NCBI RefSeq assembly: GCF_000423465.1
Contig: NZ_KE384023.1
Span: 55,124 to 119,123 of the forward strand
Length of the DNA stretch: 64,000 nucleotides
Direction of reading: 5' to 3'
DNA from: Propionicicella superfundia DSM 22317
GTDB lineage: Bacteria > Actinomycetota > Actinomycetes > Propionibacteriales > Propionibacteriaceae
The translations under genes were made by a program, and so were the position numbers. This document shows, piece by piece, positions 3,169-55,515 of the stretch (position 1 is the stretch's first letter; each line of letters starts with the position of its first letter). Under the pieces are notes generated by a model. The model did not search any database. It was not told the DNA's origin and saw only the letters and a program-made list of their open reading frames with translations.

Positions 3169-3923
3169 CAGACGAGCCCCCGGGTGTCGTCGCGGAGCCG
3201 TTCGCCGGCGCGGAACGCCGTGGCGATCAGCGCGAGGCCGAGCCCGCCCAGGAGCGGCCACCAGGGCACGGTGAGCGTGAAGGACTGCATCGGCTCGGGC
3301 CATCCGTACTGTGCGAGCGCCGTGGTCTCGGTGATGGGATGCGAGGCGCTCGCTCCCCAGCCGGCGACGTCCAGGGCCTCGCGGCCTGCCCGCCAAGAGC
3401 CCAGGTCGCCGAGGACGGAGCCGGCGACTCCGCCTGCCGTGACGACGATCGCGGCGACGGAGTGGGCCTTCGACCCCGCGCGGAACGGGTCGTCGGCCTG
3501 GACGGAGCGGGCGAGTTTGAGCGCCAGGAGGCTGACCGCGATGATGGCCCCGGCCTCCGCGAGTCGGCTGAGGGCGAGGAGGATCCGGGTGGTCCACGAG
3601 AGGCCGGTGAGGCTGAGCGTCGCCCGGTCGATGCCCCCGCCGAGGATGGTCGCGCTCGCGGGTGCGAGCTCGATTCCGTCCGCGATGTGCGGGGTGAACG
3701 GCTCGAGCGGGACGGACACGGTCGTCGAGTCGCCCGCCAGGGATGCCAGGACCGGCAGGAGCATCCCCAGCGCTGCGATGGCGATGCCCACCACGGCGGC
3801 GACCTTCACCAGGCCCGGGATCCGGTGGGCGGGCGGCGTGGCACGGACGATGAGGACGACGATCAGGACAGGTGTCGCGACGACGGCGAAGACGAGGATG
3901 ATGCTGAGAGGGTGGACGGACAC
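3168..3923 (-). CDS. DUF2975 family membrane protein
   Basis: A 251-residue integral membrane protein with four apparent transmembrane segments: residues 8-28, about 38-65, about 120-140 plus a following segment, and a C-terminal one near 220-240. It carries the DUF2975-type motif DDPFRAGSKAHS after the third segment. It starts at GTG 3923, with AAGGAGG seven bases upstream. It forms a coupled two-gene unit with the HTH gene directly downstream. The biochemical function of DUF2975 proteins is not known. The pairing with a small Xre-type regulator suggests a signalling or self-regulating membrane module, which is an inference from gene order. Confidence 0.82.
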   Translation of the reverse strand: MSVHPLSIILVFAVVATPVLIVVLIVRATPPAHRIPGLVKVAAVVGIAIAALGMLLPVLASLAGDSTTVSVPLEPFTPHIADGIELAPASATILGGGIDRATLSLTGLSWTTRILLALSRLAEAGAIIAVSLLALKLARSVQADDPFRAGSKAHSVAAIVVTAGGVAGSVLGDLGSWRAGREALDVAGWGASASHPITETTALAQYGWPEPMQSFTLTVPWWPLLGGLGLALIATAFRAGERLRDDTRGLV

Positions 3924-29134: not shown

Positions 29135-29854
29135 TTAGCCACAGCGCTGGTCGCGGTGCTCCCGCACCGCGACGTAGAGGCTCGAGAGCACCGCGCGGCG
29201 GTCGGACGCCTCGACGATGAACGTCGTCCCTCCTGTGCCGTCGGCGCCTGAGGCGAGCGCGCGCGCCGCGTCCGCGGGACCGGAGACCCCGGCCGCCTGG
29301 ATGACGAGGATCGACGGGTCGATGTCCTTGACGAGGGCGGTGGTGCGCACCGCGTAGGCGGTGTCGGTCATCGCCCCGCTGGCGATCTGCGCGGTCGGCT
29401 CGCAGATCATGATGTCGGGCCCGAGGCAGGCGACGGCGCGGCACTGGGCGTCGCTGTCGGCGCAGACGATGCTGAGCAGTCCCGCTTCACGGGCCCGGCC
29501 GATGGACGCGTCGAGATCTGCCACTGTGAGGGGGTGCTCGGCGTGGTTGAGCACCACCGCGCGTGCGCCCGCCTCGGCCAGGGACTCCGGCAGGACGTGC
29601 CCCATTCCGCGGCCGGGACGAAGCGGGTCCATGTGCTGTGCCGTCACGGTGAGGTGGGTCGTGGCCTCGGCCACCAGCCGCAGGTCGGCGTGCTGCGCCG
29701 TGAAGAGCGTGTCGATGCCGAACGCGGCTGCCAGTTCGTCGGTCAGCACGGCCAGCTCCCGGACCGCCGCCCCGGTGAGGTATGCCTTGGAGTTCACGAT
29801 CAGGAAGGGCGCGCGAAAGCCGATGCGCTCCGCCTGCCGTCGTGTGGTCCCCAT
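29135..29854 (-). CDS. Archaeal-type triose-phosphate isomerase-like protein
   Basis: A 239-residue TIM-barrel protein resembling the short archaeal form of triose-phosphate isomerase rather than the 250-residue bacterial TpiA. Counterparts of the active site are Asn/Lys in IVNSKAYL, the His in VLNHAEHPL, and the Glu in ICEPTAQIASG. The C-terminal phosphate-binding loop appears as GADGTGGTTF. Expected reaction: dihydroxyacetone phosphate to glyceraldehyde 3-phosphate, or the same isomerisation on a related sugar phosphate. It precedes ispD-ispF on the same strand, whose pathway consumes glyceraldehyde 3-phosphate, and is divergent from the PTS operon. ATG 29854 has GAGGAGG upstream. A normal TpiA probably exists elsewhere. 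Confidence 0.75.
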   Translation of the reverse strand: MGTTRRQAERIGFRAPFLIVNSKAYLTGAAVRELAVLTDELAAAFGIDTLFTAQHADLRLVAEATTHLTVTAQHMDPLRPGRGMGHVLPESLAEAGARAVVLNHAEHPLTVADLDASIGRAREAGLLSIVCADSDAQCRAVACLGPDIMICEPTAQIASGAMTDTAYAVRTTALVKDIDPSILVIQAAGVSGPADAARALASGADGTGGTTFIVEASDRRAVLSSLYVAVREHRDQRCG

Positions 29855-29956
29855 GGCGCCTCCTCGCGATCATCCAGGGCCACTATGCCCGGCGCGGGAC
29901 GCTCTCGCCTGGGAACCGGATTCTCCACGGGGGGCTGGCGGTGGCGAAACCGGTGT

Positions 29957-29964
29957 GCTACCGT
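29957..29964 (+). promoter_or_regulatory. Probable promoter (-10 region) of the PTS operon
   Basis: GCTACCGT, with TG one base before it (TG-TGC-TACCGT context), lies about 20 bases upstream of the antiterminator site, so the transcript would include the whole RAT/terminator leader. Confidence 0.4.
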
Positions 29965-29985
29965 GCTCGCGAACGAAAGTTCACG

Positions 29986-30014
29986 GGATTGTTACCCCAT
30001 CGAGGGGCAAGACC
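29986..30014 (+). promoter_or_regulatory. RAT site (ribonucleic antiterminator) for LicT/BglG-type regulator
   Basis: A 29-nucleotide element with the exact layout of BglG/SacY/LicT RNA targets: GGATTGTTAC, a CCC-ATCGA-GGG hairpin, then GCAAGACC. Its 3' end (AAGACC) is also the 5' arm of the terminator hairpin that follows. Binding of the antiterminator and formation of the terminator are therefore mutually exclusive. The gene for such a protein lies downstream at 32152. Confidence 0.88.
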
Positions 30015-30053
30015 TGGGATGCACGAAGGTGCGTCTCAGGTCTTTTTTGTTTT
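30009..30053 (+). terminator. Leader terminator overlapping the RAT
   Basis: A 16-base-pair stem with GAAG loop (AAGACCTG... pairing with ...CAGGTCTT), followed by TTTTTTGTTTT. It is a strong intrinsic terminator between the promoter and the PTS gene, controlled by the overlapping RAT. Confidence 0.9.
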
Positions 30054-30076
30054 CCGGAAGGAACGGAGGTCTGACA

Positions 30077-32104
30077 ATGGAGTCCGGAACGAAACAGAAC
30101 ACGGCCGAACGGATCGTCGACGGCGTCGGCGGGGCCGACAACATCCTCGGGCTGACGCATTGTGCGACGCGGCTGCGCTTCGAACTGAAGGACGCATCGG
30201 GCGTCGAGCAATCGACCATCGAGGCGATCCCCGGAGTGATGGGCGCCGTGCCCCAGAGCGGGGACCGGTATCAGGTGGTCATCGGCGGAGCCGTGCAGAC
30301 CACGTTCAACGAGATCGTCAACCTGCCCCAGATGCGGGGCGTGGCCACGGGGGGCAGCGACGCCGACGTGAAGGCGGCGGCACGGGCGCAGGGCCCGCGG
30401 GGCCGCTTCGCCTGGCTCGACTCGTTCTTCGAGTTCCTGTCGGACTCGTTCCGTCCGGTCCTCGGCGCCCTGCTGGGGGCGTCGCTGTTCATCACGTTCA
30501 TGGCGTTGATGGCGACCCTGAAGGTGATCCCGGCCTGGAATGCGCCCGGGGTGACGCTGGAGCCGTCGTGGCAGTTCATCAACTTCTGCTGGCAGGCCGT
30601 GTTCATCTTCCTGCCGCTGATGGTGGCCTACAACGCGAGCAAGAAGGTGAACGCCGATCCGTGGATCGGGTTCGCGGTCATGGCCGTGCTCATGCTGCCG
30701 GGGTTCACCGCGCTGGGGACGTCGGCGACCGAGATGACCGTGTTCGGGTCGGCGGTGAAGGTCGTGCACATCTTCGGACTTCCCCTGACGATCTTCGACT
30801 ACAGTTCGCAGGTGTTCCCGCCGCTGCTGATGGCGGGAGTGCTCGGGCCGCTGTACAAGGGCCTGAAGAAGATCATTCCCGAGAACGTGCAGCTCATCTT
30901 CGTGCCGTTCCTGTCCATGCTGATCATGATCCCGCTGACCGCGTTCGTCATCGGTCCGATCGGCGTCTACGCCGGCGCAGCGGTGTCGGGGGCGCTCAAC
31001 GCGATCAACAACTTCTCGCCGTTCATCTTCGCGATCCTGATCCCGCTGCTCTACCCGTTCATGGTGCCGCTCGGACTGCACTGGCCGATCAACGCGATCA
31101 TGCTGCTCAACATCCAGACGCTCGGCTACGACTTCATCCAGGGGCCGATGGGCGCGTGGAACTTCGCCTGCTTCGGCGCCACCGCCGGGGTGCTGTTCCT
31201 GTCCGTTCGCGACAAGGACGCCCAGATGAGGCAGACCGCGACGGGCGCGCTCGCCGCCGGCCTGCTGGGAGGTATCTCCGAGCCGTCCCTGTACGGCATC
31301 CATCTCCGCTTCAAGCGGATCTATCCGCGCATGCTCGTGGGCTGCTTCACCGGTGGCCTCGTCATGGGCCTGGGCAGCCTGTTCGGGCTCAAGATCAAGA
31401 CCAGCGCGTTCGTGTTCACCTCCCTGCTCACCATTCCCGCCTTCGATCCGATCGGCCTGTACGCCCTCGGCGTCCTCGCGGCCTTCGTCGTGGCGATGGT
31501 GCTCGTCATCGTGTCCGACTACCGCACTCCCGAGCAGAAAGCCGAGGCTCTCGCGGCTCGTGAGCAGGCCGAGGCCGATCTGGCGCAGGCCGAGTCCGCA
31601 TCCGCCCCTGTCGCGGCGGTCCCCGCAGGCGGGGTGGCCACGCTCGTCCGCACGAGTGCTCTCGTCGCACCCGTCGCCGGTCGCGTCCTGCCGCTCGCCG
31701 AGGTCGGCGACAAGGTGTTCGCCTCCAAGGCTCTGGGCGACGGCGTCGGCATCGTGCCGAGCGAAGGCCGCGTCGTGGCTCCGGTCGCCGGCGTCCTGGT
31801 GACGGTGCACAAGAGCGGCCACGCCTTCGGGATCAAGACCGACGACGGCGTGGAGGTGCTCGTCCACGTCGGGATCGACACGGTTCGGATGGGCGGCGAG
31901 GGCTTCGACGTCAAGGTGCAGAAGGGCCAGCGGGTCGAGGTCGGCGACGTGCTCGTCGAGGTCGACCTCGACGCGGTCGCGGCCGCCGGTTTCGACCCGA
32001 CCACCGTGGTGGTCGTCATCAACACCAAGTCCCTGGCCGCGGTCGAGCCGCAGGCGCATGGCGAGGTTGCCCGCGGTGAGGCCATTATTGGTGTCACCCC
32101 GTGA
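30077..32104 (+). CDS. PTS beta-glucoside-type EIIBCA permease
   Basis: A three-domain sugar phosphotransferase permease of 675 residues that imports and phosphorylates a glucoside. EIIB (1-90) has the phosphocysteine C29 in LTHCATRLRF. The membrane domain EIIC (about 105-455) has about ten transmembrane segments and the loop motif GISEPSLYGIHLRFKR. A charged Ala/Glu linker (490-520) leads to EIIA (about 535-675), with the phosphohistidine near residue 597 in VLVHVGIDTV. ATG 30077 has GGAAGGAACGGAGG upstream. Control by RAT/LicT points to an aryl-beta-glucoside or similar sugar; no phospho-beta-glucosidase gene lies nearby, so the true substrate is uncertain. Confidence 0.92.
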   Translation: MESGTKQNTAERIVDGVGGADNILGLTHCATRLRFELKDASGVEQSTIEAIPGVMGAVPQSGDRYQVVIGGAVQTTFNEIVNLPQMRGVATGGSDADVKAAARAQGPRGRFAWLDSFFEFLSDSFRPVLGALLGASLFITFMALMATLKVIPAWNAPGVTLEPSWQFINFCWQAVFIFLPLMVAYNASKKVNADPWIGFAVMAVLMLPGFTALGTSATEMTVFGSAVKVVHIFGLPLTIFDYSSQVFPPLLMAGVLGPLYKGLKKIIPENVQLIFVPFLSMLIMIPLTAFVIGPIGVYAGAAVSGALNAINNFSPFIFAILIPLLYPFMVPLGLHWPINAIMLLNIQTLGYDFIQGPMGAWNFACFGATAGVLFLSVRDKDAQMRQTATGALAAGLLGGISEPSLYGIHLRFKRIYPRMLVGCFTGGLVMGLGSLFGLKIKTSAFVFTSLLTIPAFDPIGLYALGVLAAFVVAMVLVIVSDYRTPEQKAEALAAREQAEADLAQAESASAPVAAVPAGGVATLVRTSALVAPVAGRVLPLAEVGDKVFASKALGDGVGIVPSEGRVVAPVAGVLVTVHKSGHAFGIKTDDGVEVLVHVGIDTVRMGGEGFDVKVQKGQRVEVGDVLVEVDLDAVAAAGFDPTTVVVVINTKSLAAVEPQAHGEVARGEAIIGVTP

Positions 32105-32151: not shown

Positions 32152-32997
32152 ATGAGGATCGCGCGTGTCTTCAACAACAACATCGTCCTCGCGTTGGACG
32201 ACGCGGATCGCGAGGTGATCCTGACCGGCCGTGGCCTGGGTTTCCAGGCCCGGCCGGGGCAGGACGTCGACGAGAACCTGGTGGCCCGGGTCTTCGTGCC
32301 GATGGACGGGCGGGATCCGGACCACCTCGCGCAGTTGCTGGCCGGCATTCCGCCCGAGCACATCCATCTGGTCGGCCGGGCACTCGCGGAGGTCGGCCTC
32401 GACACCGTCGCACGCAACCCCGCCCTCGTCATCGCGCTGGCCGATCACGTCAGCTTCGCCCTGCGCCGGGCGGCGCTCGGGAAGGACCTCGAGTACCCGC
32501 TGCTCGCCGAGGTGCAGCATCTCTACACCGAGGAGTACGCCCAGGCGGGGGCGCTTCTCACGGCGATCAACCTGCACAGCGACATTCCTCTGCCCGACAG
32601 CGAAGCGGTGGGTCTCGCGCTGCACCTGGTGAACGCGGGATTCGCGAGCGGGGACCTGTCGTACACCTACAAGATGACCGGCGTGATCCAGCAGATGGTG
32701 ACGGTGATCGAGCAGTCGTTCGGCCGGACGCTCGAGACGAGCAGCGTCAGCGTCGGGCGGTTCATCACCCACCTGCGCTACCTGTTCGTCCGGATCCATC
32801 AGCACCGACAGCTCAGCGATGAGCATTCGGCCGTGGGCGCGGCGATCCGCGAGGCCTATCCCGAGGCCGCGGAATGCTCCCAGCGGCTGGCCGGGATGCT
32901 CGAGTTGCGGCTCGGGGCGTCCATCTCGGGCGACGAGGTCTCCTACCTGTCGCTCCACGTGGCCCGTGTCGTCGCCGACACGGGCGAGGAACCCTGA
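32152..32997 (+). CDS. BglG/LicT family transcriptional antiterminator
   Basis: An RNA-binding regulator of 281 residues. The N-terminal CAT domain (1-55; MRIARVFNNNIVLA, GRGLGFQARPGQ) grips the RAT hairpin. Two PTS-regulation domains follow (PRD1 about 65-170, PRD2 about 172-281). Conserved histidines are present in LTAINLHSDIPLP, GRFITHLRYLFVR and SLHVARV. In the absence of substrate the EIIB domain is expected to phosphorylate PRD1 and inactivate it; with sugar present it binds the leader RAT and lets transcription pass into the PTS gene and itself. It starts 47 bases after the PTS gene. Confidence 0.93.
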   Translation: MRIARVFNNNIVLALDDADREVILTGRGLGFQARPGQDVDENLVARVFVPMDGRDPDHLAQLLAGIPPEHIHLVGRALAEVGLDTVARNPALVIALADHVSFALRRAALGKDLEYPLLAEVQHLYTEEYAQAGALLTAINLHSDIPLPDSEAVGLALHLVNAGFASGDLSYTYKMTGVIQQMVTVIEQSFGRTLETSSVSVGRFITHLRYLFVRIHQHRQLSDEHSAVGAAIREAYPEAAECSQRLAGMLELRLGASISGDEVSYLSLHVARVVADTGEEP

Positions 32998-33028
32998 GCG
33001 GCGACGGTACCGACAGGGGAAACCCTGC

Positions 33029-33114
33029 CGTAGCTACCCTTCGGCCGGGACGCTACCGGGGGACCGGTAGCATCCCGGCCTTGGCGTAGCGGCCTGTCCC
33101 GAAGGGTAGCTACG
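33029..33114. repeat. Nested palindrome, family C copy 2
   Basis: Outer arms CGTAGCTACCCTTCGG and CCGAAGGGTAGCTACG enclose the inner palindrome GCTACCGG-GGGA-CCGGTAGC. It lies just after the antiterminator gene and could serve as its terminator. Confidence 0.85.
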
Positions 33115-33165
33115 TCGGGGCGACGACGGCTCGGTCCGGTCCCTTGTGGGTCCGGTCTGGTTCGG

Positions 33166-33412
33166 TCCTGTGGTCCGGGGATCGGTGCCGTTCGCAACCA
33201 CCCGCCTCGCAGGCTCGGCGGGGGCCAGTCCCGTCCACGCTCACGGCACCGTCCTCCCGGACCACAGGGCCACGGGTGTGGTTCGCGACCACTCGCCTCG
33301 CAAGCTCGGCGGGGGCCAGTCCCGTCCACGCTCGCGGCACCGTCTTCCCGGACCACAGGGCCACGGGTGCGGTTCGCAACCACCCGCCTCGCAGGCTCGG
33401 CGGGGGCGAGGA
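33166..33412. repeat. Repeat family A copy 3 (tandem)
   Basis: One palindrome opening with CCTGTGGTCCGGGGATCGGT and two further half-units, each with the core CGCCTCGCA(A/G)GCTCGGCGG and ending in CCGGACCACAGGGCCAC. The half-unit period is about 94 bases. It sits between two family C copies, so two repeat families are interleaved in this gap. Confidence 0.85.
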
Positions 33413-33420
33413 GGCTCCGG

Positions 33421-33506
33421 CGTAGCTACGCTCCGGCCGGGACGCTACCGGGGGACCGGTAGCGTCGCGGCCTTGGCGTAGCGGCCTGTCCCGAAGGGTA
33501 GCTACG
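33421..33506. repeat. Nested palindrome, family C copy 3
   Basis: Nearly identical to the copy at 33029: CGTAGCTACGCTCCGGCCGG at the left, CCCGAAGGGTAGCTACG at the right, and the inner GCTACCGGGGGACCGGTAGC. A few bases differ. It completes the gene-free gap 32998-33529. Confidence 0.85.

Positions 33507-54138: not shown

Positions 54139-55515
<1,377 letters not shown>

Follow-up and report, generated by a model that had tools for sequence, protein, structure and literature searches.

A probable LicT/BglG-type antitermination switch in front of an apparently mosaic, most likely glucose-specific PTS permease gene in Propionicicella superfundia

The window (the whole stretch of 64,000 nucleotides analysed here, positions 55,124 to 119,123 of contig NZ_KE384023.1 of P. 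superfundia DSM 22317) probably contains a transcription attenuator of the LicT/BglG type governing two genes, one for its own antiterminator and one for a PTS permease whose sugar is most likely glucose. Seen directly in the sequences are the RAT (ribonucleic antiterminator), the terminator, the overlap between the two, the gene order, the domain make-up of the proteins, the co-occurrence of RAT and antiterminator, and the covariation within the RAT. The features are as follows.

29956..29964, + strand: predicted extended -10 promoter element, TGCTACCGT, proposed from the sequence
29971..29982, + strand: small hairpin GAAC-GAAA-GTTC, 3 nt 5' of the RAT, at the predicted transcript start
29986..30014, + strand: RAT, 29 nt, GGATTGTTACCCCATCGAGGGGCAAGACC, read directly
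30009..30048, + strand: intrinsic terminator, 16-bp stem and T-run, from sequence and folding
30063..30069, + strand: likely ribosome binding site, ACGGAGG, proposed from the sequence
30077..32104, + strand: gene for an EIIBCA PTS permease, 675 aa, most likely glucose-specific, apparently mosaic
32152..32997, + strand: BglG-family antiterminator gene, 281 aa, CAT-PRD1-PRD2, from profile and domain matches

A preliminary description of this DNA had proposed a RAT and terminator sharing AAGACC, a PTS gene behind them and the antiterminator as the next gene but one. Direct reading and the folding statistics of the terminator confirmed the RAT and terminator, and the EII gene (30077-32104) does lie directly 3' of it, followed by the antiterminator gene (32152-32997). 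All 16 of the 16 pairs in the terminator stem, AAGACCTGGGATGCAC/GTGCGTCTCAGGTCTT (30009-30044, with the T-run continuing to 30048), are formed, two of them as G-U, and the fold of -28.5 kcal/mol (z -6.5) was equalled in stability by none of 200 shuffles. The AAGACC at 30009-30014 is common to this stem and the RAT. The RAT hairpin alone is unremarkable in stability (z -1.15, 30 of 200 shuffles equally stable), which fits a structure dependent on its protein and is the reason why covariation, rather than stability, was used as evidence for the RAT. Its core, GGATTGTTAC, occurs once in the 3.62-Mb genome, compared with no occurrence of the reversed control word. At the gathering score, Rfam reported nothing at the switch; seven weak matches (E up to 10) all fell far below their gathering scores and were taken as chance, including the best of them by E-value, sraL (19.4 bits against a gathering score of 39, E 0.017). 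The sole Rfam match in the window at the gathering score was an msiK RNA (RF01747; 53922-53980, minus strand, 63.3 bits). A gene whose translation reads as triosephosphate-isomerase-like lies divergently from the switch on the minus strand (29135-29854).

The antiterminator matches Pfam CAT_RBD (65.6 bits) followed by two PRD stretches, and its CAT domain is the only one found in the genome (3.62 Mb in 23 contigs, 98 % complete). It scores 219.1 bits against the LicT equivalog NF046042 (curated cut-off 300) and 191.6 bits against the GlcT equivalog NF047357 (curated cut-off 320), below the cut-off in each case, and NCBIfam gave an equivalog call neither for this protein nor for the EII; both LicT and GlcT are among its relatives in the PDB. 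When aligned to LicT, it retains N10, G26, R27 and F31, which we take to be the residues that contact the RNA, and histidines 99, 158, 207 and 269 are near the expected PRD places and presumably match the PRD sites in role. Directly 3' of the gene (33018-33506) are two 97-nt copies (91 % alike) of an element with inverted repeats, which flank 91-nt tandem repeats, of which two are full copies (92 % alike) and a third is partial.

A survey of the Propionibacteriaceae, the family to which the window belongs, covered 198 genomes and used the RAT pattern TTGTTAC-N(4-24)-GGCAAGACCT, which gave 47 matches in 44 genomes against two matches of the reversed control. A CAT domain was found in 67 of the 198. 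RAT and CAT occurred together in 43 genomes, a RAT only in one (G001, an assembly of 540 contigs), a CAT domain only in 24, and neither in 130, though the genomes are related and the Fisher value for this co-occurrence therefore overstates the case. The 24 genomes with a CAT domain and without a strict RAT may have variant RATs or other targets. For 43 of the 47 RATs, a CAT gene on the same strand lay within 5 kb (2.0-2.7 kb downstream for 35, further downstream for seven and upstream for one), and four had no CAT gene on their own contig.

A search by similarity to PtsG, independent of the antiterminator, kept 80 of 332 loci. The query was a sequence taken to be that of the Corynebacterium glutamicum protein; C. 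glutamicum itself is absent from the 80, and the nearest loci kept are relatives at up to 87 % identity. An antiterminator gene was present at eight of the 80, all eight having a RAT with no more than one mismatch before the EII, and a RAT with up to two mismatches was found at none of the 72 loci without an antiterminator, two of which span less than 6 kb; the pattern used in counting mismatches permits G or A at position 26. Ten RAT-like matches with three mismatches, in nine of the 72 loci, were taken as chance. RATs were also seen at L117, L147, L148 and L150, as well as at L232, where no antiterminator lies within 1.5 kb. Among more distant antiterminators, no RAT was found at L045 and L046 (28-31 %), and at L043 (32 %) only a RAT-like site with four mismatches.

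Thirty RATs were followed by a T-run and 25 of these, 23 of them distinct, were aligned; L124 (a copy of L034), L147, L148 and the two of L150 were left out. Eight pairs were placed according to the LicT RAT structure, a hairpin with two asymmetric internal loops. Over the resulting 182 cells, 99.5 % were paired and 11 were changed on both sides, neither value being reached in any of 500 shuffles; the counts of pairs and of pair types were equalled or exceeded in 11 and 19 of the 500, respectively. Changes on both sides were confined to two pairs of the upper stem, the second of which reads U-A in 12 RATs, C-G in ten and U-G in one, and four of the five lower pairs are invariant. The overlap between RAT and terminator stem was present in the 25 aligned loci, which had been chosen for the T-run after the RAT. 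Taken with the terminator fold and the co-occurrence, this covariation lends good support, at the level of sequence, to the LicT/BglG-type switch with a cognate antiterminator that the preliminary description had put forward.

Several loci depart from the simple arrangement. Outside the family, L225 and L229 appear, by eye, to keep the outer part of the RAT before the EII with a long insert in the apical stem and GCAAGGCC, and an inverted repeat directly upstream. L150, from Cellulomonas sp. RIT-PI-Y 76, has two oppositely oriented RATs (3594-3623 and 3771-3800) separated by about 150 nt, one of which equals the consensus with zero mismatches. Raineyella antarctica (G104; loci L132 and L146) has a switch-controlled EII and a further EII of the same type at which no RAT was found.

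In the literature on this family (PMC6148471, PMC9981650, PMC1489936), the cognate EII is described as phosphorylating the regulator and keeping it off, which the substrate reverses, HPr-P acting on PRD2 usually helps, and the active protein binds the RAT and blocks the terminator. Binding, phosphorylation and induction at the present locus are modelled on these relatives. Transcription would start near 29970. Without substrate, phosphorylated EIIB would phosphorylate PRD1 of the antiterminator, the terminator would form and most transcripts would end near 30048. Uptake of the sugar would drain phosphate from the permease and leave PRD1 dephosphorylated, upon which the antiterminator would dimerise and its CAT domain clamp the RAT; the RAT would then retain AAGACC, the terminator stem would lose six pairs, and read-through into the permease and antiterminator genes would follow. 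The position of the antiterminator gene behind the terminator would make the circuit self-reinforcing. The word TGNTANNNT or TANNNT, at a spacing comparable to that of the predicted -10 element, is present, as a raw count, in 41 of 45 RAT contexts.

Of 45 distinct RAT contexts, 36 have a hairpin of at least four pairs whose end is 0-8 nt 5' of the RAT; shuffling (200 sets) gave 20.6 +/- 3.0 and never more than 31. Hairpins of at least five pairs occur in 23 of the 45, against 7.5 +/- 2.3 after shuffling (never more than 15), and windows further upstream gave 17 to 27 of 45. This count leaves out the sites of L040 and L043, which miss the regular expression, contexts with less than 80 nt upstream and repeated contexts; the hairpins of L028 and L029, 9 and 11 nt before the RAT, were scored as misses. 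The 36 hairpins comprise 31 different arm pairs, so the sequence varies and the pairing stays. Single hairpins prove little, given the kinship among the contexts and a chance expectation of more than half as many hits. That of the window, a short one of -3.7 kcal/mol (z -1.9), was equalled in stability by 25 of 200 shuffles, and of six Corynebacterium copies, three (L109, L110 and L111) have none and three (L117, L125 and L148) have only 4-pair stems. Over the 28 nt preceding the RAT, folding energy averages -6.75, compared with -3.43 +/- 0.28 for letter shuffles, but a stretch 53-80 nt upstream that was taken as a control likewise gave a low value (-5.51), and we therefore relied on the positional count and not on the mean energy. 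The hairpins start approximately where the transcript would start, judging from the predicted extended -10 element. Our guess is that they shield the 5' end of the leader or, by slowing the polymerase, give the protein time to find the RAT.

The frequency of hairpins close to the predicted 5' end (36 of 45 contexts) would also fit a stabilising leader, and the title of a 2015 survey of RATs by Gordon et al. reportedly asks whether RATs do more than antitermination. It is conceivable on these grounds that binding of the RAT chiefly does something else, for instance stabilise or localise the mRNA, and that the terminator is a constant attenuator, but we consider this very improbable because antitermination most readily explains why RAT and terminator overlap in the 25 aligned loci, although these were selected for their T-runs. 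Even harder to credit is a relic, in which the RAT is defunct and the terminator is a plain attenuator or serves an upstream gene: RAT and antiterminator are intact and conserved together, and the nearest upstream gene-like long reading frame runs the opposite way and would have no use for a terminator at 30009-30048.

There is somewhat more to be said for an alternative that keeps the antitermination switch and changes the sugar, which would then be a beta-glucoside, sucrose, trehalose, glucosamine or similar, handled by an enzyme outside the glycoside hydrolase families GH1 and GH4. The EII, for which a genome search at E up to 1e-5 gave a single match, has as its best full-length NCBIfam match the beta-glucoside EIIABC family TIGR01995 (E 1e-153), and its EIIA is closer to that of bgl-type permeases than to that of glucose-type permeases lacking the switch. 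The TIGR01995 match, however, is below the cut-off (513.1 against 614.7 bits). It is the EIIC that sets the substrate of a PTS permease, and the window EIIC shares an identity of 0.56-0.59 (mean 0.57) with Corynebacterium PtsG-like proteins against 0.23-0.32 (mean 0.28) with bgl-type proteins; for glucose-type EIICs with a RAT in general the values are 0.52-0.61 (mean 0.57) and 0.21-0.32 (mean 0.28). A quick EII tree with a midpoint root likewise placed the window type with the Corynebacterium PtsG-like proteins and away from the bgl type. The weak link in the case for glucose is the anchor, a sequence taken to be that of C. glutamicum PtsG, together with the absence of C. glutamicum from the 80 loci. 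No match to GH1 or GH4 was found in the 98 %-complete genome by searches that were positive in seven and six, respectively, of 14 control genomes, and a phospho-beta-glucosidase of the usual families therefore appears to be lacking. A GH1 gene is in the locus in all seven bgl-type cases (L037-L042 and L044) and was found beside none of the 19 window-type loci (the window, L027-L036, L109-L111, L117, L118 and L123-L125, of which L124 repeats L034). Eight of these 19 (L030, L032, L036, L109, L110, L111, L123 and L125) have genes for HPr and EI downstream of the antiterminator. Both proteins are also found in the window's genome, where one of four HPr matches adjoins EI and the remainder accompany fructose-type, glucitol-type and DhaM-like genes, named from reading their translations. 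In C. amycolatum, C. vitaeruminis and C. lactis, the window-type EII is the single match at E up to 1e-10, in assemblies for which no completeness is given. Glucose is thus most likely the sugar as judged by these comparisons, another sugar being unlikely, and the preliminary description, which held that the sugar could not be deduced and suggested growth on aryl-beta-glucosides as a check, was too cautious on the first count and probably pointed in the wrong direction on the second.

The trees of the permease and of the antiterminator disagree. In the whole-EII tree, the window and L033 fell in a clade with ten EIIs that lack the switch (99/98), a pairing of the window with L027 was rejected at p 3e-64 and a grouping of the window with the switch-controlled EIIs drew a weaker rejection (p 0.03), though here and in the AU tests below the groups were named after the trees or identities had been seen and rejections are weaker than the p values suggest. 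In the antiterminator tree, the window groups with L027 (95/89), and grouping with L033 was rejected (p 0.0019). The conflict arises because the identity of the window EII switches sides along the protein. Over residues ~120-360 it is 0.66-0.83 to the ten switch-less EIIs and 0.42-0.61 to seven switch-controlled ones, whereas from residue ~480 the corresponding values are 0.34-0.56 and 0.57-0.76. An EIIC tree placed the window and L033 with the ten switch-less rows (100/99; opposite grouping rejected, p 3e-7) and an EIIA tree brought all 17 rows with a RAT together (100/100; opposite grouping rejected, p 1e-9); EIIB trees, of 79 columns, do not discriminate the sides (p 0.41 and 0.47). When bgl rows were added to the EIIA tree, the EIIAs with a RAT did not form one clade, although a single clade was not rejected (p 0.397), and a placement of these and the bgl EIIAs on one side was neither recovered nor rejected (p 0.246), the long bgl rows L149 and L044 falling elsewhere. 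L108, which has neither RAT nor antiterminator, has an EIIC on the switch-controlled side and an EIIA on the switch-less side.

The EII trees left out L042 and L124 (the copy of L034, from R. antarctica). Nine Corynebacterium loci of the C. glutamicum type were included in the 52-row EII tree and four of them in the 32-row trees, which left out L110, L121, L122 and L127 as near-copies; the second antiterminator tree left out L042, L043 and L044. L127 is on a contig filed as Stenotrophomonas maltophilia that is probably a contaminant, its EII adjoining that of Microbacterium hominis in the tree.

Mean identities follow the same division. The window EIIC averages 0.76 to the switch-less glucose-type proteins and 0.28 to the bgl type, and its EIIA 0.54 (0.50-0.58) to the bgl type and 0.44 (0.39-0.50) to the switch-less glucose type, with the bgl group taken without L149 and L044; the EIIAs of all glucose-type rows with a RAT average 0.51 and 0.43, respectively. 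Residues 588 and 629 were picked on 40 rows and counted on 98. All 18 antiterminator-linked rows of the glucose type read T or S and V at these positions, all eight bgl-type rows T or S and V or A, and all 72 switch-less rows L or M and F. L074, from the Corynebacterium pacaense assembly, has its EII in two reading frames and was left out of this count. As L110 was the only one of the 58 further rows to have a RAT, a second sample was drawn from 394 genomes over the class, in which 13 loci, 12 besides that of the window, matched at E up to 1e-100. In that sample the two-letter rule is imperfect: four antiterminator-linked loci read TV, TV, TV and GV, and eight loci whose 1.5-kb flank lacks an antiterminator read LF (five), VF (two) and LV (one); one of the eight, L226, repeats L120 by coordinates. 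EIIA identity to the window did not overlap between the two sets (62.6-67.7 % for the four linked loci against 45.7-51.5 % for the eight unlinked), and EIIC identity was higher in seven of the eight unlinked loci. Among 28 loci chosen for a CAT domain, an EIIA is seen in the flank of 17, reading TV in 13, SV in two and SA in two, several of them repeats of earlier rows.

From these comparisons, the window EII appears to be a mosaic with an EIIC of the switch-less type and an EIIA of the switch-controlled type, and the type of EIIA appears to track the presence of an antiterminator, also in the small second sample. We tentatively suggest that in actinobacteria the RAT, EIIA and antiterminator gene may move as a package while the EIIC is exchanged within the gene, and that the window EII could be such a chimera. 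The association of EIIA and antiterminator could be simple linkage of neighbouring genes, which needs no functional bond; the RAT, however, is at the end of the gene opposite to the junction of EIIA and antiterminator, which mildly favours a functional bond. In the SacX/SacY system, the antiterminator is active without the EIIA that feeds the EIIB of SacX, according to PMC6148471. If the suggestion of a package is right, the unit whose signal sets the antiterminator would include the EIIA, and a swap of the core could put a permease under the switch. The mosaic EII leads to a testable idea of how regulators and permeases remain matched when permeases are exchanged.

PTS antitermination is known mainly from Firmicutes and enterobacteria. 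The same overlap of a near-consensus RAT with a terminator is seen in licT-bglPH of Bacillus subtilis, bglGFB of Escherichia coli and licT-bglP of Streptococcus mutans, and in the LicT/BglG-SacY family a CAT-PRD1-PRD2 antiterminator is likewise encoded beside the EII it serves. The window differs from these systems in the glucose-type core of its transporter and in that no GH1 or GH4 was found in its genome, and the window-type RAT reads GCAAGACC, in 23 of the 25 aligned RATs, where the consensus has GCAAAACC. In S. mutans the RAT begins 4 bp from the transcript start (PMC1489936), whereas the window seems to place a small hairpin between the two.

PtsG of C. glutamicum, which is regulated by SugR, has the same EIIBCA layout and an EIIC akin to that of the window, but the C. 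glutamicum-type loci among the 72 have no antiterminator, no RAT with up to two mismatches and an EIIA of another type. In PMC2222622, C. glutamicum ptsG is described as encoding a glucose-specific EIIBCA, and strain ATCC 13032 as having only a pseudogene of a BglG-family antiterminator, with other isolates seeming to have working copies. An antiterminator-controlled glucose-type EII in actinobacteria was not reported in the literature searched, which was seen in part and lay mostly outside subscription journals. The mechanism of the switch is known; its placement on a glucose-type actinobacterial transporter is little described, and by the RAT count about one in five genomes of a single actinobacterial family (44 of 198) has the switch, apparently often on a glucose-type PTS.

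A parallel in function is GlcT-ptsGHI of B. subtilis, in which a glucose-type EII is likewise under antiterminator control, and genes for HPr and EI follow at eight of the 19 window-type loci. The GlcT RAT is longer than LicT-type RATs, whereas that of the window is short and of the LicT type, its antiterminator gene is downstream of the EII, and by profile score the protein is nearer to LicT (219 bits) than to GlcT (192 bits), below both cut-offs. The domain order also differs, the window EII being EIIBCA and B. subtilis PtsG EIICBA (PMC6148471). At this locus, a GlcT-like role would thus be performed by LicT-like parts.
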